Part shown: one piece after another, positions 1,530 to 33,655 of the stretch | How the letters are laid out: each line of letters begins with the position of its first letter | How positions within the stretch are numbered: the first letter of the stretch is position 1 | Assembly (NCBI GenBank): GCA_013115145.1 | Contig: JAAPAO010000323.1 | Coordinates: 1 to 39,706 of the forward strand | Source: Perkinsus chesapeaki | Lineage: Eukaryota; Perkinsozoa; Perkinsida; Perkinsidae | DNA: 39,706 bases | Direction: 5' to 3' | The notes under the pieces: model-generated | Seen by the model: only the letters and a program-made list of their open reading frames with translations | What the model was told of the DNA's origin: nothing | Database searches by the model: none | Translations under genes and position numbers: made by a program

Positions 1530-2893
1530 TGAACGATTTTTACCAAAAAAAACCTAAGACCGTGCTCGCCGGTGTTAACCAAGTAGACTGGCGTGCCCTC
1601 CGCAACATCGAAGCTGGGGCTCAATATGCTCCATTTCAGTCCCATATCGACTCAACAACTCTGTCGGTGGAGCACATTTGATCCACCAAAGCTTTGTTCA
1701 GTGATCAATGTCTCAAAAGCGTCACCTTGCCTTCTTTGTTGATCGATAATAAATAGATGCACTGCCTTAGTAGGCTCGTTAACTTCCGAAGGAGAGGTTT
1801 CGGCGTTATTCGCCGTTTCGATAATTCCCCCTATGGAGCACAGGCTGTGCGATCTCATCGCATCGTAGTCGACCCGCCTCAACGAAATTACGGTTAAGTA
1901 CGTTGAAAAGCTTCAAAGTACGACTTGAATTTTAGAAAGCTTGGCAACGAGTACAGAACAAGTCATCTAATATGAAGTACACAGAGAGAAACACAAGAAC
2001 GCCGAGGCTACACAAGCGAGCCTCCTGGAATAGGGTGAACATGATTGCAGGTGTCCTCTGGTGGCGCGGAGAGCCCTCCACACAAGCCAACTCTCGCCCC
2101 GGTTAGATCATGAGAGATATGCTGTATCAAGCAAATAATTGGATACCAATCAGTTCTGCACTATTGTTGTTGGAAGTTAGCATTATATACTCGTTCACTT
2201 ATTAGCGCACACGAGGCACTACATGACAGTTTTAGCTTATTACGTCATCCTGGAAGGCTGTCTACACAGGACCTATTTACAGCGAATGAGCCTAGTATAG
2301 TGTGCACAGAGTGAATGTGTAGTCTTGCAGTAGTTGAGTGCAGAGTGCACCCACAGTTCGTCCCAATGGCGTAGTACTTGTTCAAACGCGACAGCTCCTC
2401 TACAAGCGGTATGAGCTTTTGAAACTCGCAAAGCATCGAATACCAGGACTTCGTCCGTAGCTTTATTGACCCGCTTGGTACACCAAATTCAACAGCAAAG
2501 TTTGGGTTGACGGTGGCAACTATGTAACATAGTCTATGTCGATTACTTTGTCAAGCCTTAGTCAACGCATCGAACATTCGACGTGTACCGACAATACGTA
2601 TCAGACTGCTGTAGGGTTAACATGCGTATTACGCCAAGTGATATAATATCGTGTAAAACAACACTAACTGCTATGTGCTTTGTGTGTATTCCAGTACCGT
2701 AGTGTATATGTGGTCCACATAACGGGTTACAACTCCATTTAACTCAAATCAATACTTCGTAACAAGATTTACTAACATGTTCAACATGCCTTGCTTAGGT
2801 GCCTCATAAGCGCGAGAGTGCCGCGTAGAGTCTCCTCATACCGGGGTTCGTCTGGATACCTGTCAATGGGGAAATTAAGGTCTAACTTCTCAA
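1530..2893. other. no supported gene
   Basis: No gene could be assembled here. A short minus-strand frame at 1652-1882 is rich in charged residues and could be an isolated exon, but no start, splice partner or family was found. The 2100-2890 part is AT-leaning with no convincing coding signal and probably includes the 3' flank of the cassette gene that ends at 2894. Confidence 0.4.
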
Positions 2894-4343
2894 TCAGATA
2901 GCCCTACCACTGTCCGGCAATTTGCTGCCAGAGTCGCTGCTTGAAAGCGACGTTGGTGTACTATTAGAGGGCGCATTCCCTCCAGGTCTCTGGTAAGATA
3001 ACTGTCTCGCATCCGGCACCTTATCCACCACCTTCACTCGCCAACCTGCCAATAACACTCATCAAACCGAGTCATTTGGCCAAACCAACCTCCAGCCGTC
3101 GGTGCTGCTCCTGCTGATGAACTGCTGCTGCTGGTGGAGGAGGAGGACTCTTCGGTGGAGTTCATCAGGGAGCCTCCTTCCTCGATACGATCTCCACTAT
3201 TCTTCATCGTTGTTCCGCCATTTATGTTGAGATTAGCCAACTCTCGAGCTCGAGATGTAACCGTCAGCTCGGATGCATTCTCCAAGACTTTCACGGCCTT
3301 AACGCGCCAACCTAACGTCACCATTAATATCGCAGTGTAAATGATACTTCCCCAAACTATTTTCTAATCACCCAAGATTCGACTAGTTTTCTCCCAGGAG
3401 ATAACTCACGCAAATCCGAGGAACAAGCCATCCAAGGTCTAGGAACTGGGTGACTGGCGACATTTCCGCTCAGGTTCTACAACCATATCCTTCCGACGCA
3501 TTCACGGTATTCAGTATTTCTTGATCGAACTCGCCTTACCCGCGCCTTGTCCTTTCGCCGTTACCGAGGAGGATGAATCGGTCGAATTGAACGTTTCTTC
3601 GTTGGCCGCCGATTCTTCACCCCCCTCCTCCATCGCACCACTGCCTTCCTTCATATCTGTCCCCCCAGCCAGCCTGACACCCTCGGCCACCGCCTCCGAG
3701 GTTGTTTCATTTAATGCCGAGGCCAGGTGCCTTTCACGTCTCTCAGTTTCATCTGCCAGAGTGAGATCGTTGCCATTGGAGAGCAGCTTCACTTCCTTAA
3801 CTCGCCAACCTGAAATCATCACAAGTCCCTATTGCTTTATTATTAAACCAAGTAGATATGTGACAAGTTTAAATTATATATTCGACCCACTGCGCTTTTC
3901 CTCAGTTACCAAATTCACACACTTTCACAGCTCCAGACATGATTTCGACAACAAATCAAGCATACCGACAAAGGCGAGCTTGACAGGAACATGGAAGGCC
4001 CAGTCAATAGGAGCCACCTTCCACAATAGAGCTCGCCGAATGATACACTCGAGGCCCGAGGGATCCCCAATAACCTCACCCAGCCTACTACCTCCAGATC
4101 CTCCTCCTCCTGATGTAATATTGGTCTTGCCTGTTGTTGGCTGTCCCTCGCCAACAATCATAGTTTCATTAGAATCATTGCTCATCGTATCATTTATATG
4201 GAAACCGCCCTCCTCGGTGTAACCGGCATGCTTTTGGGTGTAAACTCCGCCATGGATGTTGAGATCAGCCAACTGCTGTGCCTTCGACTTTGACGTCAAA
4301 TCTCTGCCATTCCCGACTAGCTTGACCTCGCGAACTCTCCAAC
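2894..4343 (-). other. 3' exon subfamily of the cassette gene (GWRVK type)
   Basis: Four successive 3' exons, 4343-4092 (or 4080), 3809-3540, 3311-3090 and 3045-2894, all begin at AG|GTTGG and encode GWRV(K/R)xVK. The first three continue into a Gly-rich segment (GGT...MEEGG / RIEEGG), N-S-T sites and Ser-rich tails. The last is shortened and ends in TGA. The exon ending at 4393 has the GGTTS...MEEGGS part but not GWRV. The exon at 5941-5837 carries both FGEEDGE and GVRLGGGT, which links this subfamily to the acidic-motif cassettes upstream. Confidence 0.75.
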
Positions 4344-7300
4344 CTGCTCGAGGAACTTCCATCCAGCAACAACAGGGACTATTTAAACTTACCTCCAGCG
4401 CCGCTGCCAGCAAACTTGGCAGCACTCGCCTCTGTTTGGTTAGACTCTGTTGAGTTCAAATACGAGCCGCCTTCCTCCATAGCGTCCGCTCCGTTCTGGC
4501 TTGTTGTACCACCACCGAGCTGCACGCCTTGCTGGACTGCCATTTCTGGAAGGATGAACGGATTCATATATGATGCTAGTAAAGTATCCAAGCCTGAAGC
4601 GAGTGAGTTGCGTTCCGCGATGGACAACCTCAACAGGATTTTCCTGGCTACATGAGAGATAACGATTTGTATACGACATATCAATCTGGAACAAGGACGA
4701 CACTCATTTGGAGTAATCCCGTTATTTTATCAAGTACATTCCCACCCACAAGAATCAAGACACAAGGCGGCTTCGACTGCAACCGGCTTTCTACACACTC
4801 CTCCACTAGATGACGATGATGCCATTACGGAGAACGCCAATGAGAGCTGTGGTGACAGGTTCTGCTAGTCTGCGGGTTTTCGGGTCCGAGAAGGAAAGTA
4901 GTAACTTTCGTAAATTGCCAAGGGCACGTTTTCTCACCATCATCAGAAGACGCTATAACACCTTCATCCTCGCCAAAGTGTAGGGCCGCCTTCGGCGAAT
5001 CTGCAAGACGCAGGTTCAACTCCCACGACTTGGTATTTTATTCACCTTTTTCCGGTTCCACTTTGCCATCCATCTCACTGAAGTGCAATGCCGGCTTATG
5101 CTCTCTGGCCACCACCGAGTTAGCTTGCTGCTGCTGATCAGCCTCCCCTTCCTCTTCATCCATCGTCACTACCGACGGTTCTGCAACCAAAGCAAGGTAC
5201 GCCAGCTCCCACAGTAGTGACCTTACCGTGAGGTTTGATCTCGCCGATGTCCTCATCAAAGCCCGTCCCTGAGAATGCCAACTCCAAACTGGCAACTATT
5301 CGATCAACTTACCCGGCTGTTGTTGCTCATGCTGGGATGACTCGGTCTCGTTTCTTGACTGGTGCTCCCGAATCTCATGGCCGCCCTCCTCGACCGAACT
5401 GCCACCTAGATCGGAGATGTCTTAACTCCTTTCCAACCGAAAGTGACATTAAGACGAGCTTAACGCCGAGCCCACGTTTTGCAAATTCAACAAGTGCAGT
5501 GCGCATTTTACCACAAAAAGTCTTCTTCTTCATACTGGGTGATTATCTTCCTACTCATCCAGTTAGTGAATGATTCAATTGTGCGTAGGGAGCCAGCTAG
5601 CTCTCCCAAAACTAATACCCTTCGCGAATCTATTCCCGAGACAAGGACATCGCATCCGTGCATGTATAATATGAACACTGTCACGAAATAATACGACCTG
5701 TACATTCCCAGGAGTATGATACTAACGAGGAAGAGTTTGAACTTGAAATTTTGTAAGAGCAGCTTTAGAAATATTATTTCCATCCTACTATACAGATTGA
5801 CATTTCCCATCCCAACAGACGCCTTCAAGAACTGACCTTCTGTGACGTGCGTACCACCGCCTAAGCGGACCCCTTCTCCCTTCGGCTCCGTCTCGCCGTC
5901 CTCCTCGCCGAACTGTACGAACGGTGGTTTATTCTCGACGACTGAAAGGAAGGAATCAAACTTCTTTGGACGAGTTCCTGTCCGAGCGAGCTTGATTCTC
6001 AAAGTGAAATAGCATGGAAGTCGGCCACCACATTCGCGACTAGGTTGCTCTTGCAGTTTTCGTATCTCCAACTCGATGAAGTTTTATCTTTCCGAGTCGG
6101 AAGTAGAAAATGCGCGTAAGTGTCGGCCGCCAACTTTCTAAGCAGAATTCGATAAAAATAGTTTTTAGATTCAACATCAGATAAGTAACTTTTTCAAGTA
6201 ATTTCCTCACCTTCAGGTTCATCAACTTCTCCATCAGACTCACCAAAGAGTATTCCAGCACTGGTAGTGCTGGGCGGCAGGGCCGTTGTGGAAGGTGACA
6301 CAGTGGTGTTAACAGCTGCATTGGAAGCAGACTCAACGACTTCCTCTGACTCTCCTTCTTCCATTCCGAAACTTAGGCCTCCTCCAGTTTTCGAGGGAGC
6401 TAGAGAAGAAATCGGTATGAGAATTCCTACTTAGATGAGACCTACGTGATGTCGTTATGCTGCCGGAAGCCTCACCAAAATTGATTCCGACCGTTGATGG
6501 CACCGCTGAGATGATCGAGCTTAATTCCATGCAGTAGTGGAGTAGCTTACCAGTTGTCGAGGACGTCACAGCTTCAGACGAATCTTCCTCTTGGACGTCT
6601 GATTAGAGGAGGGAGCGGTATGAAAACTGCTAACCTACAAACGATTGCTACCTTGGGCTTCCTTTTCCCCTTCGATACTATCGAATGTAAGCCCAGGACC
6701 CTTAGTAGTAGTGGAAGATGAAGGTCTCGTTTGGGAAGCTGAGACAGGAAGCTTCCCAGGGTAATACGACTAGTGGGATGATGGTGTTACTGGTGGTTGA
6801 TGAGGATACCGCGCTGTCTTGACGCTCAACCTTCTCACCATGCTCTGCCACTTCGCTTCCACCCTCTAACCTATCTGATTGACCTGATAAAGCAACCTAG
6901 ATTCACGACTGTAATGCTTTTAAAGTGAGAGGGCAACCGTGATGGAACTATGAATGTATTTGATGTCCATTGATTCCATCCTAGTTGATGTTTACTATTT
7001 CATTGGAGTCCAAGTCGCCTTCAGAAATGTCAATCGCACTAGTACTTCTCAACTTCGCTCGAGCAACACATTTTAGTGATAACCCCGCTGGACGCCGACG
7101 AGGCTTACCTCCACTAGTGCGGCTTTCGCCTTCGATGTCGACGTCCGATTCCTCTGAAAAAGAAGCATGGCGGTGTGATTGACGACAGAGGAGCTTTCTT
7201 ACCTTTCTCAACCGTTTCACCGTCCTCCTCCCCGAAAAGGACTCTAGACGGACCTTCGGTGGTTTCTGAAGGAGATAGAAAAATATACAAATGAGGAGGT

Positions 7301-10300
7301 GGAGGCATAGGAACGAACCATCTCGAGCAACTCGTATGCTCCTCACCTTGCACTTCTCCATCTGATTCACCAAATACTATTCCCTTAGTCGTTGCCCTTG
7401 TAGTGGTGGTGACCAACGCCTCGGTGGCGGTCGTTGTAGTTGTAGTAGTAGTATTGCGCTGCTCCTGCTCCTGCTTCACCGCATCACCCTCAGAGACCTC
7501 CTCAGAGCTTCCTTCCTCAGACCCAAATGCTAGGTTACCAGGAGCAGGAGGAGCTGGTTTGAACAAAATACAATTATTCTATCAAAAGTTACCAACACTC
7601 ACCTTTGGTGGTCGTCACTTCTTCACTATGCTCGCCGAAATCCACGCCACTTCCACTGCTCGATGAGCTTGCCGTAGTGGTGGTACTAGTAGCTACGTAT
7701 CAGATAGAAACAAGTCCACACCTGCCGACCTACTCGAGCCACTCGTCGTAGCCGTCGTCGAAGTAGGCGCTGGTCGTTCTGTAGATTCCTGATGCTCTTC
7801 TATGTGCTCGTCCTCTTCGCCTTCTTCCATACCAAAGCTCAGTCTCGACCCCTCAACTGTAACCAAGCTATGATTGGCATCCTCGTCGATGCTAGCATCG
7901 CTCCTACCAGGCGGTTCGACTTCCCCATCATTCTCACCAAACACCAAACCGACAGTTGTGGTGCCGGCCACTGTAGATTGAGTGGCTGAAACATGAATTT
8001 AGTGGCGCAGTGACGATTCAGTTCGCCTACTACTTGAAGTAGTAGTGGTAGTAGTAGTCGTCCTTTTCGTGGTGGATCTAGTAGTGGTAGGAGTCGGAGC
8101 CATCCGCGTTGTCGTTGTGATCTCTTCGGGCAACTCACCAGTCGTGGCTGAGAAACAACGTTAAATGCTCCCGCCAAGTGAATCTAATGCCTTCCTCAAC
8201 TCGCTAAAGTGTGATTATATAAAACATCACACATTTCTATTCAAATCAAATTTATCCTGTTTTACACATACACATGGTATGACACAATTATATGTCTACT
8301 TTCATAGCCGTTGCTACTACTGCTGTTAAGTGATGGTGTATTCCTCATCCACCCCAACGCTCCAACCCCTCACCTTCATGTATCTCCTCATCCTCCTTTT
8401 CTTCAACTATCCCTTCCTCCTCGGTAAAGTTAGGATTAACTGCATTGCTGCTACGGTCAATCGGGACTTCCTCGATCTCTTCATCTCCTTCCTCCTCTGA
8501 AAGCAACCGGCTCAAGTTACCAAAGCACTTCAGTCACTTCGCAAAAACACAGATTAATTGCCAAGATGTTCTTCAACGTCGTTCAAAGGTACGCCCGTCG
8601 ACGTCGTCTACGTACGGATGATGATAAAGCTGAGAGCTCCATCGTGACAAGTTAATGGACCAGAAGACCAACCTAAGCTTTTAGCGTCTAATGGTCTCGT
8701 TCCATGTCCACCAACAGTGATAACCCAGCACTGTAAGATGGCGTTGAATAACAATCCGATAAAATTTCGCATCATTGCGACGTCGTGACCGAGGATCGAA
8801 CTCACCTGGCACTCCCTCCTCCTGCTCATCCTCCCCAACGGTCTTCTTCTCCTAACAAAGCCGCTAACTTGCCATTGGAATGAGCTAAGTTTGCTTACAA
8901 AAATGAAAACCAAGAAACATCTCATGGCCTTCCTATCCTTAAACCGAATCTCCACGATGTTTCCGTCCTTCAAGATTGCCGTTACGAGTAGGTCCGAAGG
9001 GGGAGGTCCAAAGTAAATGGTGCTGATGACAATGTCGAGTCTATAAGGTGCCGAAGTGTCGTTCGTGTTGATCGGTATAGGCTCGCCCGACTGACTGTTA
9101 TAGATTCGGATGCTCTCCGGTTGACCTGATCCAAGCCATCACTGTTGGATTGAATATCTTCACCTACTATGGCAAGCAGGAGCCTTCACGCCTGTGGTGC
9201 TGTTGTCCGGGACTATGACTGGTTTGTCAATCTCCTCACTGCTGCTTGATCGACTTTCCCTCTCGCCATCCTCCTCTTCAAAGTTCACTCCACCAGTTGC
9301 CTCAGGCATCCTTGTAGTGCTGGAAGTGGTAGTGGATTCTAAATAGGCCAGGATGCTGGTAGAGCCTTTGGCATGTAAAAGCACGGCCCAGATGCTGACA
9401 CACCAATTGCTACTCCGTGCCGTCCGAATGAAGATTTAGGATTTACTATACATCCAATGCTTTCTCGCGCCTGAGCCTATCATCCCTTGCCAGGTTCCAA
9501 GGCCTTAGTAATAGTGACAACGATGAGGGTGGGACTATATAAACCGTTGTTACTGCATGATGAAGGGGAAATTCGCTGCAATTCCACAGAATCCCCTGTA
9601 GAGTCTTCCAAGTCGGGACTAACTCCTCGATGTGGGGATGTGCATGTGGAGTTTATGTCCTTTAGATGAGCAACTCAGCAGCTCCGAAGATAGACATGCC
9701 AACCTCCGAGGAGGATCGCTTTCTTTCTTACTTGTTGCTGTTGTTGTTGTCGTCGTCACATCACCCGCATCCTCTTCGAAAGATATCCCTTGGGTCGTCG
9801 GCGTGGCTAGAAAATCATATCAATCAATCTACACATTCTTTTATCATCTTACCTGTCGTAGTCGTAGTGGTCTCAGTCCGTTGCTGATGCTCTTGTTGAC
9901 CTGAAACGTATCTTACCATAATCAACCTCAAGATTCCATATCCCACTTGAGCTTTCCTCCTTTATGCCATCCTCGCTCCCGAAGGACAGTCGAATCCCTC
10001 TCGCCGCCTTAGAGGGTCTCGTAGTGGTCGTAGCTAAGCCACCATGATCCAGAGGAAGTTTGGTATGACTTACTGCTCGTGGTAACATCTCCTGCGTCCT
10101 CATCGAACGCCAATGCCACCGGCGGCTGCTTTGTAGTAGCTAAAATTGAATATCTCTCCAAACCCAGCTGCGATGAATCCTTACAGCTTTCCGCCTGTTT
10201 TTCCCGAATGTCCGCGTGGTAATTATTCCTTGACGAACCTGACGGAGGACCATAATAATGTCTTCATTAGTCTGCCCTACTTTGTCGCTCGATCTCGCCA

Positions 10301-10389
10301 GCTTCCCGTCCAAAACTCAGACTTTTTCGCCTCGCAAGCACGCCCAGTGCAAGTATCAGTACACTCAGCGTTCTGCGTGTAGGTAGCAT
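2894..10389 (-). CDS. secreted cassette-exon repeat protein (at least 30 phase-1 exons)
   Basis: Not a recognised family. Exon 1 starts at ATG 10389 with a signal peptide; the last exon stops at 2894. Between them lie at least 30 short exons that nearly all begin and end in phase 1, so each has a length divisible by three. Examples: 10139-10074, 10033-9917, 9900-9853, 9806-9732, 8496-8374, 8147-8034, 7692-7603, 7553-7347, 7265-7203, 7153-7109, 6883-6791, 6738-6652, 6598-6551, 6505-6446, 6399-6211, 5941-5837, 5405-5313, 5268-5227, 5180-5046, 5000-4938. Most carry one acidic motif such as FGEEDGE, FGESDGE, FDEDAGD, FEEDAGD or FGMEEGE, with Thr/Ser/Glu/Gln-rich linkers (runs of Thr suggest O-glycosylation). 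The architecture suggests growth by exon duplication and tolerance of exon skipping. Exon calls near 9600, 7000 and 4600-4850 are uncertain, and the region could be more than one gene. Confidence 0.75.
7998..8018 (+). repeat. A-box-like intronic motif, copy 1
   Basis: TTTAGTGGCGCAGTGACGAT lies inside the 48-nt intron 8033-7986 of the cassette gene, antisense to the transcript. Confidence 0.7.
8793..8802 (-). repeat. B-box-like intronic motif, copy 1
   Basis: The minus strand reads AGTTCGATCC close to the donor of a cassette-gene intron that begins at 8805. Confidence 0.45.
8806..9125 (-). other. non-repeat domain exons inside the cassette gene
   Basis: Exon 9125-8899 encodes about 75 residues with alternating hydrophobic strands (SIRIYNSQSG, YRLDIVIST, LLVTAILKDGNIVEIRF) and no acidic motif, unlike its neighbours. 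It enters in phase 1 but leaves in phase 0, and the next exon (8851-8806, GEDEQEEG) enters in phase 0 and leaves in phase 1. This is the only clear phase-0 junction in the gene. It may be a small beta-rich domain. The preceding exon (from 9338) lacks a clear phase-1 GT donor, so the joint upstream is unresolved. Confidence 0.6.
10281..10389 (-). other. exon 1 of the cassette gene: signal peptide plus first motif
   Basis: The exon encodes MLPTRRTLSVLILALGVLA, a typical signal peptide with a basic N-region, hydrophobic core and A-x-A-like end, followed directly by a first motif copy (LSFGREAGEIE). The donor falls after one base of a codon, giving phase 1, which matches the acceptor of the next exon at 10139. 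This fixes the start and shows that the product enters the secretory pathway. Confidence 0.8.
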
Positions 10390-16344: not shown

Positions 16345-16708
16345 CTGTTGTAGGATTCTGCGCAGTCTATGTGCATGCGTGCTATAATAATCTATAGCTA
16401 GGCGNNNNNNNNNNNNNNNNNNNNNNNNNNNNNNNNNNNNNNNNNNNNNNNNNNNNNNNNNNNNNNNNNNNNNNNNNNNNNNNNNNNNNNNNNNNNNNNN
16501 NNNNGCCGGCGTGTTGTAGGATTCTGCGCAGTCTATGTGCATGCGTGTTATAATAATCTATAGCTAAGCGGCCGGCGTGTTGTAGGATTCTGCGCAGTCT
16601 ATGTGCATGCGTGTTATAATAATCTATAGCTAGGCGGCCGGCGTGTTGTAGGATTCTGCGCAGTCTATGTGCATGCGTGTTATAATAATCTATAGCTAAG
16701 CGGCCGGC
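16345..16708. repeat. 66-bp tandem repeat array
   Basis: Units start at 16505, 16571 and 16637, each exactly 66 bp. A fourth start at 16703 breaks off after seven bases. A partial unit at 16345-16404 lies on the left of an assembly gap. Copies are almost identical, differing at single positions (taagcg/taggcg, gtgtta/gtgcta). Each begins GCCGGCG and contains TGCGCAGTCT and GTGCATGCGTG. The homogeneity suggests recent amplification. Confidence 0.95.
16405..16504. other. assembly gap (100 N)
   Basis: Exactly 100 N lie within the tandem array, so the true number of 66-bp units is unknown. A round 100 is often used for gaps of unknown length. Confidence 0.97.
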
Positions 16709-17019
16709 GCGGTTGGTTATCGCCTGTCCTTGGTGTGTTCTTGATTATCACTACTATCTCTAGCGTAAGCTACCTATCCCTCAAGGTCCCTCCTGTTGTG
16801 TTAACGCATCTGAGCCAGGGGAGGCATTGGTCGTTACTGCTCAACTCGCGCGATGCCCTCACAATTTGCAAGTTACACATTTCATTGGAAAAACAGCCCT
16901 GATTCAGGGCCGTCCAATTACTCCCGTAGTATTTTAGCACCGGCGAGGACTCAAGTGGATAGTGGCGTCATGGTGACGCGGATTCACTGAGGCGGCACCG
17001 CTTTTTCAGCTGGAAAGCC

Positions 17020-20402: not shown

Positions 20403-23400
20403 CTAAGAACTATTTACGCTTTCGTCGTCCAACTCTCGGCAATCGTCAACTGTGAAGTCGTCCGCGTCGGGAACCTCCTCCGACAGGTCGTTATCACTGT
20501 CCTCGGCACCTATGTAGAACGAAGATGCCCCACCACCTGCAAGGTGCCTGCCAGGGACGGAGCGAGGGGTATCACAGTGATGGATCGAATCTGAAACACC
20601 GAGCGTCAGCCGCAATCGAAGACGAAGCTCTCAGGTAAGCCCACCGACGGCCAGGGAGCTCTTGCGGATACTATTCGAGGTGTCATGGAGTTCATCCTCA
20701 TCATCATCATCATCCAGTATCCCATGGTCGCTGCTACCAGTACCACCATCGAAGCTGCTAGAGCTACTGCTGTGCTGAGGTGCAGGGCTAGGTGGAGATG
20801 AATGGCCAGAGTGATCTGACGAACAAGTTATTTGGTTGCTGAAGGACAACAACCTCTCACCGTCACCATCAACCACCCAAGCGATCGTATAGTCGTCGCC
20901 CGGCGCTGACGGCAGCAGCTCATATCCAGTCTCAAGTGCCCAATCCAAAGACCAACCATGATAATGCCCGCCACGCGAGGCTATAGACTGCACGGTGATA
21001 CCTAATACGAACTCCTGTACAATTCATGCGCGCCTCCGTGTGCCGGACGAACTATGCGTCTTCGTCACCTCTCGCACACCGTTTCACTTCCCGATCGTCG
21101 TCCTCCTGAAGTGTGTGGATGATTTCTAGGATATCGTCCGGGCAGCTGGCTGGAAACGGGCTCAGAGCGGAAAGTGCCGATGCTACAGCTTGTCGTATCT
21201 AAAGACGCAGGTTCGATTCCCCGAGGTGACAACTTAGACCTACATGCACACAGGCATCATGACCAGTCGTAGCTAGAAGTGTCAGAAAGTATCTAGCCTC
21301 TCCACTTAAGCGCGTTGGGGCCGCACCATCCCCCGTCAGCGCCGCGATCAACACCTGTTGAACGACTTAGCAAAAGTCCGACCGAAAATCCTCACCTGCT
21401 TGCAAAGCTCCACGAAAACATGTCTTTTAGAAAATGACTTCGACGATGCGAATTTCTTGACCTGTCGAAAGACGCTACTGAAACTCAGCAGTTCGGCAAG
21501 AATCTCACTAAAAACGCCACAGTTCGTCGCTTCATGTCGGCCGGTATCGCCACGCATTTGAACACTTCAGGTGCTGCCTGTGCAGATATTCTACCTGAGT
21601 GAGTTAAGAGTGGAGAAAGAGGCAACCTCAAATCTTCTCATACTAATGGGGGGAGTGGTAGCTCCGAGAAGTGTGAGCCAGATGGTCATCAGAGACTTCA
21701 CAGAAGAAGCTTGCACAGAGTCTTCAAGCTCTCCTTCAACATCGCCCAGCGACCGTATCTACGAGGCTTTCATGCATGCGCATGCGTGCAGCTGTTTACC
21801 AATTTTCGGACAGTTTTCGCAAGCTCCCCCTTCTGTCTCCATCCAGTAGTGTCCGTGACTGTGATATTTTTATCATCTCCTCGACTCGACATAGATGAGA
21901 GGCTCATCGATGATCGGCTCCTTGGACTCGCCGCTGCAGTTGCCGACGCTATTGTGGTGAGGACTCGCAAAATCCGATTCCTGGGAGGAAGTGCGCCAAG
22001 TTGCTCATCACTCGCGCGCTCACGTAAGAACTGATTTCGGCTCTAGCCTTCGTACGATCACCTCTACCGCGTCACGCAGGAGAAGTATCCGTTCCTCAGC
22101 CAACTGAGGAGAATAATTTCCTGGCGCAGTGACGAATTTCACCTACGCCTTGAGGCGCCGCGAGTATCTGTATGACAGCCAGAGTGCAGTCCTCAAATAC
22201 CTCCTGGCATCGATCGCCACAGGAAGTTATCAAAAAGTGCAGGGAGGCTATGATCGGTCGTCTGATAGAGAAGCCACAATTTTGTCCGACGGACAAAGCA
22301 CTTCTCACCGAACTTTCGAGTCACTGCAATACAGAAGGGCCTGCAGTGGTCTCTGGAATCGCTCAGACCACAGCACGGTTGGATCCTGTGGACCGCTAAG
22401 AACGCTACGTGCAACACCTGAGACATGGTTCCACTTGGTGGCACGGCTCTGAGAAGTACAGACATACCAGCGAATGTGAAAGCGGAATGGAACAGAACTT
22501 CACGACTCAGCTCGGCACCGCCGAGGGATGTCCCCTCCTCAGAGTGCTTGTTGCCAGAGGTGGAGTCCTGCACGGCAAGGCTGGGGCACTTAGGCGGAGA
22601 TAATAAGTCTGGGAACGTGCAAGCAGTTGAGTGATAGACGAACTTCATATTCTAGGGGCGGAAGGGATGCGCTGGGTGTTTCCTTGTGGGCTGGGACCCT
22701 CTAGCTGAATTCTCATTGTTATCTCGTCCGAGTGAGGAGCAACACTTTGCCCTCCCTGTTGATCGGTTTGATTACTGCCATTGTCTGGCCTGGCCAGACT
22801 GGCCACATGATTCCCGCCTGAGGGGCAGGCGGCGGGTTCCTCGTTCACCAGTAGGATGGATTCCCCGTTCACTCATCAGTACTCGTGACAGACAATGTAA
22901 ATTCGCAGTGGTAGTGCCAGGAAAGCAGAATAATATCTAAGGTTGAAGCGTGCTTACTCTGCTGGACAGCTGAGACAGGCTAGATGAATGGGATAATATA
23001 AGATCGGAGAATTGGACCACCAGCGGGTCTACAATCTCAAACACCTTCTTATGGCTCATAAGAGGACCACAGGCAGCAATCACCTGATAGCAAAACTGAT
23101 AGAAAAACCGTAAACCAGCTCGTGGCCTCACATAGCCGACTTTCAGCATCGCAGCCTTCCGCACCCACCAGCTGGTATCCGATACTAGTGCCTCCGCCAT
23201 CGCTGTCAGCAGTTCACACACAGCTTTGTCGAGTAGGCTATCTGTTTGGGGCGATGAACCACTACCGCAGAGCAAAGGAGAATGCAAAGCAGTCAGCAAA
23301 CGCTTCAAGTACTTGACATCGTGATCGCCAGCTCCTCTTAGAAGTTCCATTAGGAACAAATGCATCGAGTCAAATGCGCTCTTCCGCACCGCCCAGTGCG

Positions 23401-25573
23401 GATCCTGGGTCAAGTGCGAGAAAAATGGATATATTTTCGTCAGAGTCAATGTTGGCCCAACAACCTGATAACATAAATTCTAAACCAACAGTCCTGAGAG
23501 CTCACCGCAGCGACCTCGGCCATGGACCCTGCCACGGCACGGCGAACTTTAGGGCAGCGCTCCTCTGTGAGAGAGTTCAACTGAGCCACTATGTACCTAG
23601 TCGATACGCCTACCAGGTGGCCGCCGCCCCCGCTGCCGAACTAGTTGCTTACTGGGAGCATATCTCAGGCCCCAAGGTAGACGACAAGTGCCCCATTAGT
23701 TGGACTGCCGCCGTCGCCGCTGTACCGTAGGATTGCCCACCTTGAACTGACAAAACAGTATCGAAAAACAAAAGTGCTATAGGGGGATGTTGGGCTGCAG
23801 CTATACTGCATAATCTATTTATTATATAGCCCAGAATCCTGTGGCGAAAGTTGCGTCATTTCAAGGGGAATACAAAAGCAACATAAGTTCCGCATCACCA
23901 CTGCCACAGTGCCACTGCGGACGCATCACATCGTCTCAGACCTATCTGAGTAGTTATCCAACCAAATGCTCATCGATGCTTCCTAATCCTCGAACAGGCA
24001 ATCTACGCTACCTTACACCCCACTTCAACAACCCTCGTGGTCCTTCCAGCCGAACCATGACCGGCGGGCTGAGTGCAACTTTCGATACAGATCTACTATC
24101 GAGGTGTCATGCTGGTAGTAACAGGAAAGAGCTAGGTCTCGAGAGATTCATTTGACCCCAAACTCCTATTACAGAATCTGCGTCTCCTGGCGTGTGGGCC
24201 CCCCAAACAAAGACCAAAGAAGTAAAAAAGACTACAAAAATCCTCTTAATGAAAGAATGTCTGAGGAATATAGAAGGTCATAAGATTTTAAGAGGAGGAT
24301 GGAAAGAAGGGTTTTGAGACAATGCTCACCATCATTGTCATCGTCCCCCAAGGCTCCAAGTCCCGCAGCGTTGGCCGGTGTTTGAGACATCCTCAACAGT
24401 GTTGTTAAAACCTACAAGATACTGTCAGTGAAGAGCATTAAATTTATTCCATACCGTCTCGCCATGGTCGTGAGATCTCATATGAACTGCTAGGGTCGAT
24501 ATCGCCGCGGCAGCCTTCGTCCTCACCTGACCGAGGGCCGGTGATATCAACAACACCACGGCGGGGAGATACGCCCAGCGGAACTCCAATCCTTGGTTGC
24601 TTACTTCGCTCGACTTGTCTTCAACCAGTATCTTAGCCACTATAGGGAACAGCTTTCGGACCACTACACTGTACCTGACCGGGAGTATCACTATCGCCGA
24701 TGATACGGCTCGGAGTGGTACTACCCTTGGTCTGGATCGGATAAGATAAGGAATGCAGCCAGCTCACCTACAGTATCGAGCAGAGCTTGCCGTATGGTAG
24801 GGTCCGGATCGGCAGCAAGACGGGCGAGCACCAAGGGCAAGATGTATCTGATCAAGTGAACACAGGAGTAGATTAAGATGTTTGTGAAGAGATGGAGGCA
24901 TCGAACCACTAACCTCTGCGTTGAAATCTAAATGCTCCCGAGAGACGACTTTGTGAATCATTTGCTCTTGGCTCAGAGATTGTTATGAGTAGACGTCTCA
25001 AAACCCAGAGCACCCAACATGAGCCCTACACAACTAACTCCACTGGCGAACCTTCTGCACTAAAGGTCACAGAGCCCTTCGAGGAAGGATACTTGACATT
25101 CACCTCAGGGCAGCCATTCTATCAAAACCCACACATCATTTTAGTTGATTACCAAACTGCTGCTGTGGTTAACCCTACTCACTCTGCTGCCTCCTCGTAT
25201 CCAACACTATAGCATGTCTCAGGTAACTGCTTTATGGCAGCAACCCTTATATGTGGGGCGCATGCTCGACCAACTGTTGCTGCGTCCACCGATCGCTGAT
25301 GCTTATCAACTGTACAGGATATCTAAACTACCCACCGGCTCTGCCCTACAAGGCAACTGGCCAGATCTTCCCGGCGGTTTCAACATGAGGACGAGTCGAT
25401 TCAGCGGTGACAGCTGGCTGATGTACTCCAGGCCCGGATGGACCGCAGCGATGAACTCGGGCTCCCCTAGGGAAAATCCACTTCCCCCCTTTCCGCTGCT
25501 TTTTCTTACTAACACCATCGCTGCCCGCTAGGCTCTCAATGCTGCCTCGCCGACGGCCAAATAAATACTGCAT
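20403..25573 (-). CDS. PPP4R1: HEAT-repeat protein similar to PP4 regulatory subunit 1
   Basis: Likely a scaffold subunit targeting a PP2A-like phosphatase. Exon 1 (25573-25510) and exon 2 (from 25466) join in phase 1 and give a short N-terminus followed by PGLEYISQLSPLNRL, resembling the start of PPP4R1. HEAT repeats follow in order: YILPLVLARLAADPDPTIRQ, SPALGQVRTKAAAAI, IYPFFSHLTQDPHWAVRKSA, VSDTSWWVRKAAMLKVG, and later QVLIAALTG and IRQAVASALSALSP. The pairing of a WAVRK and a WWVRK repeat is PPP4R1-like. A Ser- and Asp-rich segment (21-20.6 kb) leads to an acidic C-terminus ending at 20403. Many small exons are joined here; exact borders between 21.5 and 25.4 kb, especially 22.6-22.9 kb, are only partly resolved. 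The family call rests on repeat order, not on alignment. Confidence 0.62.
21210..21220 (+). repeat. B-box-like intronic motif, copy 4
   Basis: GGTTCGATTCC lies in the 45-nt intron 21243-21199 of the PPP4R1-like gene, antisense to the transcript. Confidence 0.7.
22115..22138 (+). repeat. A-box-like intronic motif, copy 3
   Basis: AATTTCCTGGCGCAGTGACG lies inside the 43-nt intron 22146-22104 of the PPP4R1-like gene, antisense to the transcript. Confidence 0.7.
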
Positions 25574-25742: not shown

Positions 25743-27410
25743 TCACATTATAGCGCAAAACTTCTTCTTCCTCCGACGCTCCCCCTCCTGCGGTTGCCGT
25801 CCTCCCTGCTGGTTGCCATCGTTTCTATCGGTAACCATCGCCACCCCCATCGGCCCCACATAGGTCTGCGGGCGTCGGCGGGCCCTCTCATCATCGTCCA
25901 TTTGCAAGCTCAATGCCAGGAGGTAGTCCGGGTCTTGCTCCGCAGCGTTCAACGCCTGTCTGGATGCCGGAGACTGTCCCGTTGCCCTGTGAAATTGAGC
26001 GTCGTAATATAGCGTGTCACCATCAAGAGTGTCCAATCTCTCCCAGACCACCGAGCTGCTGCCAAAGCCTATATCGGTGGCCAACGCATAGAGATGAGTC
26101 TCGCCCTCCGCGTCTGGACTAGGCTTGAAAACCGTAACAAAATGGTTGTTCCTAAAAAGCACCGCCAGCTCATTATCCCGCAGCTTCTCCATAATCTGGC
26201 TCAGACCGTCATAGGTCATCTGTGACTTGTTGTCATCCAACCATTGGCTCACAATCAGGCCATCCTCATACGCTCCAGGCTCAGCGGTAGTTGAGCCATC
26301 CTCTCTCCCCTCCAACGCTTGAGCTTGCATATCGTTGAATGTGACCACCTTTTCGATGGCTTGGTTGTAGCTTAGAGCGCCTAGTACCGGGAAAGCCGAC
26401 ATGTCATCTTTGCTGACAACCCAGCCATGAAGCAAAGTGATATCCAACAAATCAAAGACCCCCAGTTCTGGGGTGAACTCGAACCCATCACAGGAACCAA
26501 ATTTGACATTCACATCCAGGCCCTTATTCAGGCTCGGCAGAAGGGTGACGGCGTCCTCGAGGCCTGAAATTCACTATGGCCCAACGCCCTCCATCATCCG
26601 AGACTCACCTTGCGCCACATCGTCCTGACCGCCCTGATTAGCATCGAACATTACATTTGCAATACGACTGACTAAATCATCGAAGCTAATTGAGCTCATG
26701 TCCTTATGGAGCTGTAATTTATTACGAAGCAATAATACCTAGCAGGAGAAGAAGGCGAGCTGGTGGGAAGCCTCGACAGGTTCGACATTACATTGGCCAC
26801 TGCGAGGAGAGGGCATGGGCCGTTCTCGCTTTGGAGGAGAAATGATCTCTCCGAACCGAGGAGCTCTGTGTGCTTTATACGGTAATGATTTGGGATGGGG
26901 GATGACATGTCCTCCTGAGGCACTTGATGGGGAACCTGTGATGACAGTTCCTCGGGTTGGACGGGAGTTTTAGTTCTAATATTATTATGATCACATAATA
27001 CTCAGTGAGCACAGCTACATAAAGTGGAGTGATAGCAATCAAGTACAATTAACATCTTAACCGATGTTACAAAAAATATCTTAAATGAATTATAATATCA
27101 TCTTCTACCAACTACGATTTTCATAAGAATGCATCCCAGCTTATCACAACGAGCACTGAATGACAACATTCATCCTCACGATCATTAACCTCCACATTCC
27201 CCTTACTACCTGTCCCTCCTGTCCTGGCAAAGGCACTCCTTGAGCCACTACAACTGCTGGTACCGGATTAGCAGCTGACCCAAGTTGGGCAGCTTGGGTG
27301 CCAGCCTCAGCTGGTGGAGCATTTGCCGGGGCCTCCATAGGGACACTCTCCTCAATAGAGACTCCCCTCTGTGCTGCCGGGTTGGTTGGTGGTGGTGGAT
27401 TAGTCGACAT
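25743..27410 (-). CDS. MINDY: MINDY-1/2-type deubiquitinase with CaaX end
   Basis: A cysteine protease that trims Lys48-linked ubiquitin chains in its family. Exons 27410-27210, 26935-26792, 26738-26609 and 26563-25743 agree in phase, giving about 431 residues. The catalytic Cys lies in SENGPCPLLAVAN, followed after splicing by VLLLRNKLQL. FGSCDGFEFTPEL and GWVVSKDD follow, and the catalytic His is in NNHFVTVFK. The tail has a UIM-like DPDYLLALSLQ and ends in CAIM, a CaaX prenylation box, as described for some MINDY relatives. Exon 1 is Pro/Ala-rich and starts MSTNPPPP. A start at 26908 (MSSPIPNHY) would be possible if exon 1 is not used. The neighbours are PEX2 upstream and the HEAT protein downstream, all on the same strand. 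Confidence 0.88.
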
Positions 27411-27499
27411 ACAACTTAGAACAACTATGCGCCCTCCGACAAAAACAAACAAATGATTTCTCTGAGAAACTGTTTTAAAACGTGCATGAAGATGTTAAT

Positions 27500-28863: not shown

Positions 28864-29412
28864 ATGATCTTCTCTCCCTTCATACCGCTCCTTCCTCTCA
28901 TCATTGTCCTGGTATATGCCGACACTCCTCCTCAACCCAAGACTACAGGCACTTATCGTTCTCGTGAGCCTGCCGTGTATGGCACCTGTATCACCTTCCG
29001 TGGCTCTACCATGGATATTACTGGTCCCGAAAGAAGCAAGCTTCCTGTAGCTGCGAAGGGATCTTGGCTTTATACCGTCTCCGCGGATCCTTCAGGGTCC
29101 TATGCTATCAGCCCTACAGGGGAAAATGGGGCGACTTGGCCAGATAATATTAGACTGAAACTGGCCCCGGACGCCAAAACCATCACTTTGGTTCTCCCTG
29201 GCGAGTCTTACACCTGCAAGTGGTTGAATTCTCAGCCTAGCGTTCCCGTACAAATGAATATTCAACCTGTTGAAGATGACTTACATGGCAATCGCTACGT
29301 TGGAGACACCCCGACTATTAAATGGGGAAATGAAGAGGAAATGGAAAGAGGCAGGAGGGATTTCGCCAAACTGAGAAGTAAGGTCGATCTCAGAGATGAC
29401 AAGCTTATTTAA
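28864..29412 (+). CDS. secreted protein of a local family, single exon
   Basis: Not recognised. 182 residues. The start at 28864 gives a compact signal peptide (MIFSPFIPLLPLIIVLVYA); an upstream in-frame ATG at 28816 would add a polar leader. The mature part contains G-T-Y, a Cys pair bracketing a ~100-residue beta-rich domain (YGTCITFRG to GESYTCKWLNS) and a charged C-terminal tail. The closing pattern (I-x-L-x-x-G-E-x-Y-x-C-x-W) recurs in the gene at 31.2 kb, and a similar F-x-W ending is found in the repeats of the next gene, so the three neighbours look like paralogues. Confidence 0.75.
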   Translation: MIFSPFIPLLPLIIVLVYADTPPQPKTTGTYRSREPAVYGTCITFRGSTMDITGPERSKLPVAAKGSWLYTVSADPSGSYAISPTGENGATWPDNIRLKLAPDAKTITLVLPGESYTCKWLNSQPSVPVQMNIQPVEDDLHGNRYVGDTPTIKWGNEEEMERGRRDFAKLRSKVDLRDDKLI

Positions 29413-29526
29413 TACTGATGTTATTCATGTTGATGTGTGCGTGTTTTTATCCTATTAGCTCTTGTGTTCAAACTAACCTCTGGAGTATCTTTTCCTCGAG
29501 CTTCGTCACTCACGCCATTTTTCACA

Positions 29527-31058
29527 ATGGTTCTGCTCTTGATGGGCTTCCTATCAACCTCTTTGGCATCTTATCCTCATCGTGGTACTAAGTCATCCTC
29601 TTCAAGCTCCGATAGTGGCATTGGTGGAAGTGTGAGCACCTACCGCAGCAGCCTCGGAAGCGTCGGCAGCCAGTTGAGCTCCTACTCGACCTTCGGTGAC
29701 GACGAATCCTGCCCGAGGACCTCCGGCTACTATTATGGCACAGACGCTCATTCTCAGTGCAGCCTAATTTTCAGGCAGTCCACCGCCATGTGGAGCTGCC
29801 CGAGCAAGTTCGGCTTGCCTGAAGAGTTCGAGTTCGCCCGGGTCAACTTTGATAAGCGTAGCTTGCCTGACTACGACTACTATCCCTTAGAATGGTACAC
29901 AGACAAGGAAAATGGAGTGCTTGCTGGGGAAAAGGATACCACTGTGGATTTCGATAGTTCCTGCAAGAAGATTCTGATAGCTGATGCTTACGACTTCGCC
30001 TACTTTAACTGGCGTCAATATGAGGATGGGCCAACTCAACGTGACGAGTTGAGGGCCCCTAGGGTTCAAGGGCACTATATAGGCCAGGGTGATTTCGATA
30101 GATGCAGAATCAATTCCGTTGTTGACAAGGATAAGAAACGTTGGTGCATGATGAAATGCGTGGATCAAGCTAAGATACCTACGCCATTCGAAGGTCCGTT
30201 GCTATGTTGGGTTAGCCCGCCGAAGCGATCCTCAAGTTCATCGAGAATCGATTTGCCTCAATTTAACACCTTGGATCTGAAATACAAATCCAGCGACATT
30301 CCTCGGAATGAGCTTTCAGTCGAGATTAGTGGTGATGGCTTGATCATGAATCTGAAGGACTCCTTCCCCTCCCCCAGGGATGGCGTCTTTGAATGGGACA
30401 GTACCGACATTATCGCCTCTCCACCAAAGCAACCGCCGGTCCCCAGAACATCTGGAAACTATTTTGGTGAAGGCAAGTACCGTAAATGTTATTTCCAATT
30501 CCGAAACGTCGGTAAGAAGTACGCCATAATGAGATGCCCTCGAAGCGACGATCGATGGTCGATCCCCGATGCTTTTCTGAATCACACGTTCGTTTATGGT
30601 GTTAAGGAGAACGACGGACCTGGCCGACTTTACTCTGAGATAGAGCTATTCGATAAGACAGACGGCAACTCTCCGATAGGGTCCAAAGTAGATATCAAAT
30701 ATGATAACAGCAAGATTAAACTAACTTTTATTGGCTATGATACACCCTTCTATTTCACTTGGTCACCGATGTCCGGTGAAACTGGTGGGGCCATCACTTT
30801 ACCTTTCGAGACTGGTTATTACGCACTACCGCCTCGGGAGTATCCACATATGTATCTCAGGTAGTAGTAGGAGGGACCGGGGATCGAACTTGTGCGGATT
30901 AATTGATTTCGTCGGACATGCGTTTCTGTCCGTGCCGAAACTACCTTAGTTTCCCGAACCCTGAAATTATTGTGATATTTGGAGCGCCCTTGGAATCAAG
31001 TCGACTGGTCTCGAACACCAGCAGCAGCCTTCTCGAGCTTGCCACGAACTGTTCCTAA
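29527..31058 (+). CDS. secreted protein with three tandem domain repeats
   Basis: Not recognised. The start at 29527 gives a signal peptide (MVLLLMGFLSTSLA); the longer open frame upstream lacks ATG. A Ser-rich linker is followed by three repeats of about 120 residues. They open with RTSGYYYG (about residue 64), RVQGHYIG (178) and RTSGNYFG (307), each followed by a Cys, a hydrophobic strand and a second Cys, and ending in an aromatic F-x-W signature. A stop occurs at 30864, but AG|GTAGTAGG precedes it. Splicing 30861-30949 adds 35 residues (FPNPEIIVIFGAP...) to a stop at 31058, in phase 2 on both sides. That intron carries a B-box-like motif. The long uninterrupted exon is unlike the intron-dense genes elsewhere. 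Confidence 0.75.
30881..30890 (-). repeat. B-box-like intronic motif, copy 6
   Basis: The minus strand reads AGTTCGATCC, followed by CCGGTCCC, in the 89-nt putative intron 30861-30949 of the three-repeat secreted gene. Confidence 0.6.
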
Positions 31059-31155
31059 TGCGGAATTATAATAGTAAAACTTGGGATGCTGTCCTTTCTG
31101 GGATAAGATATGCTCCGCTTCTTCCACCATGACTCCCAGTTTGCCTCTCTCTCAG

Positions 31156-31528
31156 GCATAGACATGGTACGATCGAGCTGTACTGCAGTAACCTTGAGAC
31201 ACCATGCACTCCAATAGGGATCAACGGACCATATGCAACTAGACTCCTTGTGGGCTGGACGATGACTGTAGGCGATGAAGGTAAGGAACCTGAGTACATA
31301 GAAGTAGAACTATCGAACCCGAGCGATGGTCAGCTAGTGCTACACCCTAAAATGTGGGTGCGTAGCCAAGGGAGCGGTATGAAGATTGTCCTTGGTGATG
31401 GCAAGGAAGTACTTTGTGTGTGGGTTAAGAGCATAGAATTCAGTCAGAAAGGAGACAGAGGACAGAAAATGCGGCAAAGTGTCAGGCGCGTGAAATCGGT
31501 TATTAGAAATAGACTGAAGATTCATTAA
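31156..31528 (+). CDS. partial secreted-type paralogue, 5' exon missing
   Basis: The 3' exon of a gene related to the one at 28864. It opens after CTCTCAG in phase 2 and encodes HGTIELYCSNLETPC, then a beta-rich stretch ending GMKIVLGDGKEVLCVWVKS. That end matches the I-x-L...E...C-x-W signature of its neighbour. A basic tail follows before the stop. No signal-peptide exon could be joined; the gene may start in 31059-31155, may be the 3' part of the gene before it, or may be broken. Confidence 0.5.
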
Positions 31529-31813
31529 TTGTATACGATCATGTTCAACGATGATGTTGCTGTCCTCGGGCTCGACGACCAATGTAGTGTTATACAGTAT
31601 ATAATATGACCATCTTAATCTCTTATATGATATCATTCACCAGCCGGTGAGGGTTGAAATATTCGAATTAATAGAACCTTGTAAGCGGCTTGCAAGTACA
31701 TAACCACTAATATGGGGGAGGAGACCAGCTGCTGCTGCTGCTGCTGCTGCCTCGTTGCCGCTGATATTTTACCATGGCTTAAGTCGTGATGCGGCCTGAC
31801 GGGGAAGGTGGGA
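31529..31813. other. intergenic, contains a CTG/GCT microsatellite
   Basis: No gene. Perfect (GCT)n runs from about 31728 to 31750, directly upstream of the next gene's start. A second short GCT run begins at 31836, inside the first codons of that gene, where it encodes a run of Cys. Confidence 0.7.
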
Positions 31814-33650
31814 ATGATATACCCTTTGTTGGGCTGTTGCTGCTGCTGCAGTATCATGTCTTCACGTTCTTATGATCCTAGAAGGCCCCTAGCTACCCGT
31901 CCTCAAGCGGCAGTATCATCTACTAGTATAATTGCGGTATCGGTTACCTTGGGCATATTAACTGTATTAGCATTGGTTTTATACTGGCAGAGGGAGTCTA
32001 TGGTAGTGGTTGATCTCCAAGAGAGGCTCATGCATGCCACTGGAGAGGCAGTGGTGTGGATGCTAGAGTCGCCTCTGGGCCGTCTCCTGCTCCCATCGGT
32101 CAATATAGAAAATATCAAAAGGCGCTTTGGTATCGACGAGGCATCTAAACTCCCGTTCAGTTGGATGGCGGCTGGCCCACCGCAGGCTGCCGGTCCGCCG
32201 CGTGATCAGCGTTCAAGTAGGGCAGAGGATCAAATCGAATTGATGGCTGACGAGAGAGCTGGCATCGACGGAATCGATACCGGCAATCCTGACCTCCTTT
32301 ACGGCGATTCATTTGACGTATTTCCCGTCACAAATTGGCAGACAGTTCAGACCACAAAGCTGAAGCGAAGTGCCGAGCCTTGCCTGTGGGGCATGGATGT
32401 TTTGGAGGGCGATGATACATGGTGTCATCTGGATAGGGAGAGACTCCGAGTCGGCGACACAATCTACGAAATCCTCAACGAAGCCGAGGACCCTAAGACC
32501 GTTCTCTCCAATTTCCCCCTGCCGCTCCAAGATGTCTGCATTGTCGAATTCACCATAGAGAATCTACTTGACCATCAAAAAGTGTCGATTGGCATATCGC
32601 CGAAGCCGATTCCGCTGGGCGAATGGGCCGGCCATTTCCCCTACAGCTTGGGGCTCTTCAACGATGGTTCAATCTTCGCAGGAGACTGGAGGTCTCCGAT
32701 TGGGACAATGCTTGGCGGCTTTGCTAGCGGCGATGTAATCACGATGATTGTGAAACGAAAATACGGCGGAGCGAAGCTCAACGGGGCAGCGGTGCTCTTC
32801 AGGAACGGAGATCTATGTGGAAATGCATGCCCGGTGACGATGGAGTCCCTGAGGGTCCCATTGGACGGAAATGAAGAGCCTAAGATTTATGGGGAGGATT
32901 GCGAACGGATGGTCTTCGGGTAAGGGGAAGGCGACCTAAAGATACGTTTTGTTGCCTAACATCAGATACCGTTCTCTTAAGGGCACAGATTACGAGATCT
33001 CCTCGCCTGTCCCGATGAGACCGCCCAGGCCGAATCGAGCTGAATGGGGCTATTTACCGGCACCTTACATCGCCATCAGTGTGGCTGAGGCAGAGGCCAC
33101 TTCACCAGTGAAAGTGGTGGTCAATTTTGGGGCCGATCCTTTCGCTTACGCGCGAGAAAGTATATCGAAAGTTGCGGGCCTTCTCGGGCTTGAGGGAGAG
33201 CTGAGTGGTTCAATGGATGCACTTGGATATGGAAACAGCCTACTGGTCGATGAAATGGAAAGATACGTCCAATTGCGCACCGCGAAGATTTTGCGCATGC
33301 GTGCAAGCGCAGATGAACCACCCTCTCCTCCACGAGAGGTCCAACTGCGTTCGCCAGCAGTCGTTCCCGAGCCTTCTCTCCCTGTAGCTTGTGAAAATCT
33401 TCCAAGTGCGGTCGAGGGGGTATCTTCCGATGATACACCGTCGCCTCGTTATATCGACCTCAGCGATAGATGTAGATTCGTTCCTCTCGATGATGGTGGT
33501 GGTGGTGCCCCGTGCGATTGTGCTTGGTTCACTCTAGGAGCAGCTCACGGCATTTGTGGGCGATGTGGTCATGATAGATTATGGCATAAACCAGGTCCCG
33601 GAGAGAAGAGGATCTTGCTAAGCGGTAGGTTGCTAAGTCACGCGCCATAA
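31814..33650 (+). CDS. membrane-anchored SPRY-domain protein with Cys/His C-terminal motif
   Basis: Exon 1 31814-32919, intron 32920-32965 (46 nt, phase 2), exon 2 from 32966. ATG at 31814 (Cys-rich start) or 31856 (MSSRSYD). One transmembrane helix (SIIAVSVTLGILTVLALVLYW) precedes a linker and a SPRY domain: VSIGISPK, FPYSLGLFNDGSIF, GDVITMIV, then across the intron to VKVVVNFGADPFAY, the usual closing strand. SPRY domains bind peptides. The C-terminus has C-x-C-x10-C-x2-C-G-H-x4-H, a likely zinc site. The frame stops at 33650. If 33625-33672 is an intron (GTAGGT...TTGTAG, carrying the A-box-like motif), the frame continues to 33752 and gains a hydrophobic tail (EGFFLALLLHRSN). Both versions stay in frame. 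Confidence 0.8.
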
Positions 33651-33655
33651 AATTG
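33636..33655 (-). repeat. A-box-like intronic motif, copy 7
   Basis: The minus strand reads AATTTTATGGCGCGTGACTT in the putative 48-nt intron 33625-33672 at the 3' end of the SPRY gene, antisense to the transcript. Confidence 0.65.

Follow-up and report, generated by a model that had tools for sequence, protein, structure and literature searches.

Gene structure and intron phase

We have analysed a 39,706-nucleotide stretch of the genome of Perkinsus chesapeaki (contig JAAPAO010000323.1 of assembly GCA_013115145.1), which is called the window here. Its minus strand carries one predicted gene, running from an ATG at 10389 to a stop codon at 2804, with 33 exons that encode 1,244 amino acids, and nearly all of its introns lie in phase 1. 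The gene was called by our own gene finder, which uses codon-position coding content, GT-AG splice site models and intron lengths, is blind to phase preference, and was trained on about 222 kb of the P. chesapeaki assembly including the window. With a middling exon penalty, this phase-neutral model gave the span 10389-2804, 33 exons and phase 1 in 29 of 32 introns, against 134 of 519 introns in 58 other predicted genes of the same 222 kb (binomial P = 1.9e-14). The longest run of phase-1 introns was 14 in this gene versus at most four in the 58 others. A laxer penalty let the model overrun into downstream sequence, with 35 of 49 introns in phase 1 (background 202 of 731; longest run 9 versus 5; P = 2.4e-10), and a stricter one gave 26 of 29 (background 85 of 380; P = 2.2e-14) and an end at 2894. 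When the finder was retrained without this gene, it returned the span 10389-2804 and again 33 exons, with phase 1 in 30 of the 32 introns; this retraining is nearly, not wholly, independent, as the remaining training genes came from calls of the first version of the finder.

The spliced protein was compared with deposited proteins. Its best match was FOL47_005843 (P0001) of P. chesapeaki (95% identity, with 100% of the query part covered), and five P. olseni proteins were also matched, two of them near full length (P0002, 1,137 residues; P0003, 1,102 residues) and three being pieces (P0004, P0005 and P0006). P0001, P0002 and P0003 are collinear end to end, the signal-like N-terminus included, with 60% identity for P0002 and 59% for P0003. 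The deposited orthologues FOZ60_010025 and FOZ61_009154 of P. olseni, like FOL47_005843, are labelled "hypothetical protein" only. P. olseni lacks four stretches that the deposited P. chesapeaki protein contains, which suggests that these are unspliced introns or result from wrong borders, and their removal yields the homology-guided model of 1,244 amino acids and 33 exons, with phase 1 in 31 of the 32 introns. Its exons measure 42-270 nt and its introns 40-431 nt, and 29 of its 31 internal exons start and end in phase 1 (1-1 exons). The sole intron in another phase sits inside a small domain, between exons E8 and E9. The homology-guided borders were chosen with the phase known, and the fair test is accordingly given by the unguided counts (29 of 32 and 30 of 32).

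These results bear out a previous reading of the locus, made from the sequence alone, in proposing one gene of more than 30 exons with a symmetric phase-1 pattern. On the other hand, two of its details have to be changed. The internal exons were described as micro-exons, but their median of 93 nt does not differ clearly from the 109 nt of 469 other internal exons (p = 0.27). The gene was thought to end at 2894, where a stop codon arises from reading through the last intron; the spliced end (2859-2804) encodes a C-terminal peptide, GM-R-x-L-x-x-ALSR, that is common to P. olseni, and places the stop at 2804. The exons of the homology-guided model, with the phases at their two borders, are as follows.

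E1, 10281..10389, minus: ATG, signal-like peptide MLPTRRTLSVLILALGVLA, then motif copy RRKSLSFGREAGEIER; start kept in P. olseni
E2, 10185..10238, minus: 1-1
E3, 10074..10139, minus: 1-1, motif LAFDEDAGD
E4, 9947..10033, minus: 1-1, motif LSFGSEDGI
E5, 9853..9900, minus: 1-1
E6, 9732..9806, minus: 1-1, motif ISFEEDAGD; without clear counterpart in P. olseni
E7, 9168..9338, minus: 1-1, motif VNFEEEDGE; 5' border set by comparison with P. olseni, downstream of the start given by the gene finder and the deposited model
E8, 8899..9125, minus: 1-0, bulk of the conserved domain, longest folded-looking stretch
E9, 8806..8851, minus: 0-1, end of the conserved domain; E8 and E9 jointly 1-1
E10, 8374..8496, minus: 1-1, very acidic, 85% identity with P. 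olseni
E11, 8031..8147, minus: 1-1, Thr-rich linker
E12, 7908..7985, minus: 1-1, motif LVFGENDGE
E13, 7734..7856, minus: 1-1, motif LSFGMEEGE; E12-E13 resemble E21-E22; preceding intron based on P. olseni and on the gene finder with the laxer penalty
E14, 7603..7692, minus: 1-1, motif VDFGEHSEE; opens the duplicated block E14-E16
E15, 7347..7553, minus: 1-1, Thr-rich linker flanked by two motif copies
E16, 7203..7265, minus: 1-1, motif VLFGEEDGE
E17, 7109..7153, minus: 1-1
E18, 6791..6883, minus: 1-1
E19, 6652..6738, minus: 1-1, motif LTFDSIEGE
E20, 6551..6598, minus: 1-1
E21, 6446..6505, minus: 1-1, motif INFGEASGS; P. olseni has two copies of the unit E21-E22
E22, 6211..6399, minus: 1-1, Thr-rich linker flanked by two motif copies
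E23, 5837..5941, minus: 1-1, motif VQFGEEDGE and GVRLGGGT; E21-E23 duplicate of E14-E16; 3' border placed from the deposited model and P. olseni
E24, 5313..5405, minus: 1-1, VEEGGHEI half-module with N-glycosylation sequon; 5' border placed from the deposited model and P. olseni
E25, 5227..5268, minus: 1-1, shortest exon (42 nt), motif TGFDEDIGE
E26, 5046..5180, minus: 1-1, motif LHFSEMDGK; also VTMDEEEGE, not counted by the pattern
E27, 4938..5000, minus: 1-1, motif LHFGEDEGV
E28, 4393..4545, minus: 1-1, GVQLGGGT...EEGG...NST half-module; 5' border placed from P. olseni
E29, 4092..4343, minus: 1-1, full GWRV...EEGG module; 3' border placed from P. olseni
E30, 3540..3809, minus: 1-1, full GWRV...EEGG module; absent in P. 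olseni
E31, 3090..3311, minus: 1-1, full GWRV...EEGG module; absent in P. olseni
E32, 2908..3045, minus: 1-1, GWRV half-module
E33, 2804..2859, minus: last exon, conserved C-terminus GMRRLYAALSRL, stop
Nine long introns, minus: 9339-9731, 8497-8805, 8148-8373, 6884-7108, 5942-6210, 5406-5836, 4546-4937, 3810-4091 and 3312-3539

The intron lengths are bimodal, as 23 of 32 measure 40-81 nt and nine measure 225-431 nt; in the other predicted genes, 98 of 519 introns are 200 nt or longer. The introns called by the gene finder are GT-AG by construction and have a median of 49 nt. For P. marinus, the published account gives introns of 39-1,622 bp, mostly below 100 bp, with 1-10 per intron-containing gene (PMC3101222), and the features of the introns called here fit this description.

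Elsewhere in the window, exons of a MINDY deubiquitinase lie at 25743-27494 on the minus strand (PF04424, E = 1.5e-54 for 25743-26570), and the introns of that gene show canonical GT-AG splicing in the P. chesapeaki genome. A HEAT-repeat exon is located at 22937-23449, and a 36-exon gene-finder model that spans both stretches probably fuses neighbours. Two adjoining intron-poor predicted genes of 3 exons each occupy 28864-34439 on the plus strand. The first has a signal-like peptide and, as judged by eye, repeated G-x-Y-x-G...C-x-F-like blocks; no Pfam match was found in the exons searched, and its main exon has no second copy in the assembly. At 16405-16709, a run of N is followed by a 66-bp tandem repeat (about 3 copies at 98%), which is probably an assembly gap within a repeat array.

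Motif, modules and conservation

The protein predicted from the gene carries an acidic motif with a consensus of about [LIV]-x-F-G-E-x-[DEA]-G-[ED]. A strict pattern, derived from the observed copies themselves, finds 18 copies, versus a mean of 0.035 and a maximum of 2 in 2,000 shuffles, and a slightly looser pattern finds 19 copies in 17 of the 33 exons. The expectation that each exon usually carries one copy thus holds for about half of the exons and fails for the rest. Six 3' exons (E24 and E28-E32) contain a second module or half-module, GWRV...EEGG, and one or more N-glycosylation sequons occur in every exon that bears EEGG (E24, E28-E31).

Between P. chesapeaki and P. olseni, identity is 75% at the motif positions (where aligned) and 76% in the E8-E9 domain, compared with 55% in runs of Thr, Ser, Ala or Pro and 54% in the rest. 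Accordingly, selection seems to keep the motif and the domain. The species alignment misplaces a P. olseni duplicate near E19-E22, so that per-exon identities there are too low, and this unit was compared separately. In exon content, the GWRV/EEGG exons E30 and E31 occur in P. chesapeaki and not in P. olseni, the same probably applies to E6, and P. olseni has the second E21-E22 unit. Module turnover looks slow, and linker change looks faster; a comparison of P0003 with P0002 suggests that linkers may recombine in addition to exons being duplicated.

From the searches run, the protein has been found so far only in Perkinsus. Six proteins matched at E <= 0.01, one of P. chesapeaki and five of P. 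olseni (the best 7,999, 804 and the best 8,000 candidates being scored), and no P. marinus protein was among the matches of a search whose length filter would miss short fragments. Prokaryote and viral contigs were scanned with two seven-residue patterns each; 413 and 187 stretches, respectively, fitted one of the patterns, and none of them was confirmed. No Pfam family reached E <= 1 in three proteins and none was found for the domain alone; two proteins had no NCBIfam match, and no solved structure in PDB was matched. Titles and the first parts of abstracts in the literature searched contained nothing on the gene or the motif. These results agree with the sequence-only reading, which knew of no described family with this motif.

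Exon duplication within the gene

Exons and blocks of two or three exons match each other within the gene, as would be expected if it grew by internal duplication. The block E14-E16 matched E21-E23 with z = 24, E28-E29 matched E30-E31 with z = 28, and E29 matched E31 with z = 23. Among 16 exon comparisons, which were picked by eye and partly overlap, the score was reached by none of 1,000 shuffles in 13. At the DNA level, four of seven exon pairs exceeded all 300 shuffles. On the other hand, seven intron pairs of duplicated exons showed no clear similarity, their scores being reached by 26 to 294 of 300 shuffles, and in P. chesapeaki itself the two members of a duplicated unit, compared in three pairs, have different residues at 41-48% of the aligned positions. 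The two E21-E22 copies of P. olseni are identical to each other at 23 of 44 residues, and to the single P. chesapeaki copy at 27 of 44 and 29 of 45. Since each of them is closer to the P. chesapeaki copy than to the other, the E21-E22 duplication appears to predate the split of the species, with one P. chesapeaki copy lost.

Judged by this divergence, the duplicated copies are ancient. Recent or fast exon amplification was considered and rejected on the DNA-level exon comparisons, the introns without clear similarity and the apparently older E21-E22 duplication. The fast evolution that had been proposed from the sequence alone is likewise not supported, given units that are 41-48% diverged, introns without clear similarity and an extra P. 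olseni unit that is apparently older than the split.

Genome searches were made in a P. chesapeaki assembly of 35.4 Mb and 884 contigs, which is possibly incomplete; the best candidates were scored, and very short exons may escape such searches. With the whole protein P0001 as query, 22 of the 22 matches listed fell in this locus (10 candidates scored), and the modules searched had no match outside it. The predicted gene is thus single-copy in the assembly searched, and there is no sign of module exchange with other genes.

Based on these comparisons, we consider that the uniform phase-1 symmetry is most likely due to old exon duplication within the gene. Phase-1 exons, and blocks of two or three of them, would have been duplicated in tandem. 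Copying that leaves the frame intact needs symmetric exons, so one ancestral 1-1 exon with a motif would account for the uniform phase. Of the 19 motif copies, 11 end 4-5 residues before the 3' end of their exon, whereas random placement gives a mean of 1.9 and did not reach 11 in any of 100,000 trials, although this interval was picked after the distances had been seen. Being fixed near the exon end, the motif looks as if it had been copied as a unit with its spacer and the intron position.

Several further observations weigh against this interpretation or against its wider form. With a wider cut of at most 6 residues from the exon end, the position of the motif is less striking (13 of 19 copies; random mean 6.5; P = 0.00085). 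In three of the 16 exon comparisons no clear similarity was seen, as 52, 89 and 59 of 1,000 shuffles reached the score, and not every exon is therefore demonstrably a copy. For the three other exon pairs compared as DNA, 1, 7 and 12 of 300 shuffles scored at least as high, and 10 of the 33 exons have neither the motif, as defined by the pattern, nor a GWRV/EEGG module. Finally, the signal-peptide exon proposed from the sequence alone is supported by a signal-like N-terminus that was judged by eye and by its conservation in P. olseni. Nevertheless, we are highly confident in the predicted architecture of the gene and its origin by internal duplication. The complete explanation, which also includes a secreted scaffold as the function, we hold to be rather probable.

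Putative function and comparison with known systems

The protein has a net charge of -121, and 309 of its 1,244 residues are Ser or Thr. By the charge-hydropathy rule, about 80% of windows of 51 residues are disordered; there are four folded-looking stretches, the longest in E8 (65 window centres) and the others of 16-18. Only two cysteines are present. There is neither a hydrophobic C-terminal anchor nor an internal membrane-spanning stretch, and the highest mean hydropathy over 19 residues past residue 60 is 1.11. The protein is probably secreted, or resides in the secretory pathway, and is putatively N- and O-glycosylated. Its motif copies are spaced by Thr/Ser-rich mucin-like linkers, and it further contains the E8-E9 domain and the C-terminal GWRV...EEGG modules with their sequons. 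In the working model, the motifs would offer a series of docking or cation-binding sites along an extended glycosylated chain, and the protein could be a multivalent scaffold of the surface, matrix or wall. We propose this function of a disordered, glycosylated scaffold tentatively. The gene also marks a protein of shellfish parasites that is so far known from Perkinsus alone.

A different role may be considered from the same properties. The strong negative charge, the lack of a C-terminal hydrophobic anchor or internal membrane span, and the conserved C-terminal peptide, as a possible sorting signal, are compatible with a secretory-pathway protein that works inside the cell, in a vacuole or other compartment, for example as an acidic store binding cations or polyphosphate. 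The Thr-rich linkers and the sequons of the EEGG modules are typical of extracellular glycoproteins, yet they would also be compatible with such a store, which we regard as unlikely. A further alternative concerns the use of the exons. If the 29 symmetric exons were skipped in varied combinations, as in schistosome micro-exon genes, the gene would generate many secreted variants. For 29 of the 31 internal exons, skipping would cause no frameshift, and the P. olseni model P0003 lacks 58 residues relative to P0002, a gap that takes in most of E14 and roughly half of E15. However, the ends of this gap lie in or beside Thr-rich runs and not at exon borders mapped in P. chesapeaki, so that a linker deletion or a prediction error fits better than skipping. 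The donor sites, with a mean score of 5.29 versus the sample average of 4.41, and the acceptors (4.93 versus 4.92), scored with site models trained including the gene, also argue mildly against it. The frame-neutral exons keep isoforms in consideration, but we consider an isoform generator improbable. A little less probable still is the idea that, by combinatorial splicing of the 29 frame-neutral exons of a single-copy gene, a Perkinsus cell lineage would confront its bivalve host with a great many secreted variants; if true, it would be an independently evolved counterpart of the schistosome genes without switching within a gene family.

Two other explanations concern the gene itself. Every exon chain is a prediction, our gene finder is able to fuse neighbours, and the P. 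olseni model P0005 begins within the gene, so it may be asked whether non-coding sequence or several short genes were read as one. The leave-out gene finder and two near full-length P. olseni proteins concur on the start, order and end, and the motif positions are kept across species, which makes such an artefact very improbable. The sequence-only reading had cited phase-1 symmetric exons as the hallmark of exon-shuffled extracellular proteins in animals; in shuffling of the animal type, phase-1 modules are imported from other genes. P. chesapeaki, however, is an alveolate protist and not an animal, so that this animal hallmark is not directly transferable; no Pfam domain was found in the protein, and import of exons was rejected because the modules searched had no match outside the locus among the best candidates scored. 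Shuffling of this kind is, in our view, hardly credible, and internal duplication stays the preferred origin.

Alveolate parasites have Thr/Ser-rich mucin-like proteins of the surface or wall. The Perkinsus protein resembles them in its signal-like peptide, Thr runs, acidity, low complexity and Ser/Thr-rich disordered linkers, but differs in its regular acidic motif, which is linked to the ends of exons, and in having a private conserved domain and the GWRV/EEGG modules. Compared with the micro-exon genes of Schistosoma, the likeness lies in very many short exons and the occurrence in a parasite, and would extend to a signal peptide (here signal-like, as judged by eye and by conservation), to secretion (here putative) and, in the mechanism suggested by the sequence-only reading, to variants made by skipping. 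The micro-exons of Schistosoma measure 3-81 bp and the introns of these genes reach 5 kb (PMC10526429), whereas the internal exons here are 42-270 nt, with 12 of 31 at or below 81 nt, and the introns are 40-431 nt; the gene therefore falls outside the definition by exons of 3-81 bp and long introns. In addition, Schistosoma belongs to another phylum, and alternative splicing of the Perkinsus gene is hypothetical.

Extracellular proteins of animals that are built from class 1-1 exons are modular and share mobile domains. The present gene is likewise modular and probably secreted, with nearly all exons 1-1 symmetric (29 of 31 internal exons), but its modules, as far as searched, were found in no other gene of the assembly, have no Pfam counterpart and include only two cysteines, and the organism is a protist. 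A published study describes a rise of 1-1 exons in metazoan genomes and an agreement between exons and domains in eukaryotes generally (PMC6547436). We consider that this protist gene most likely reached the same symmetry as the animal 1-1 proteins by internal duplication. It would thus be a clean case in which motif, linker and exon border look copied together and phase-1 uniformity arises without animal-style shuffling, and it allows a direct test of how genes grow by symmetric exons and of the use of isoforms.

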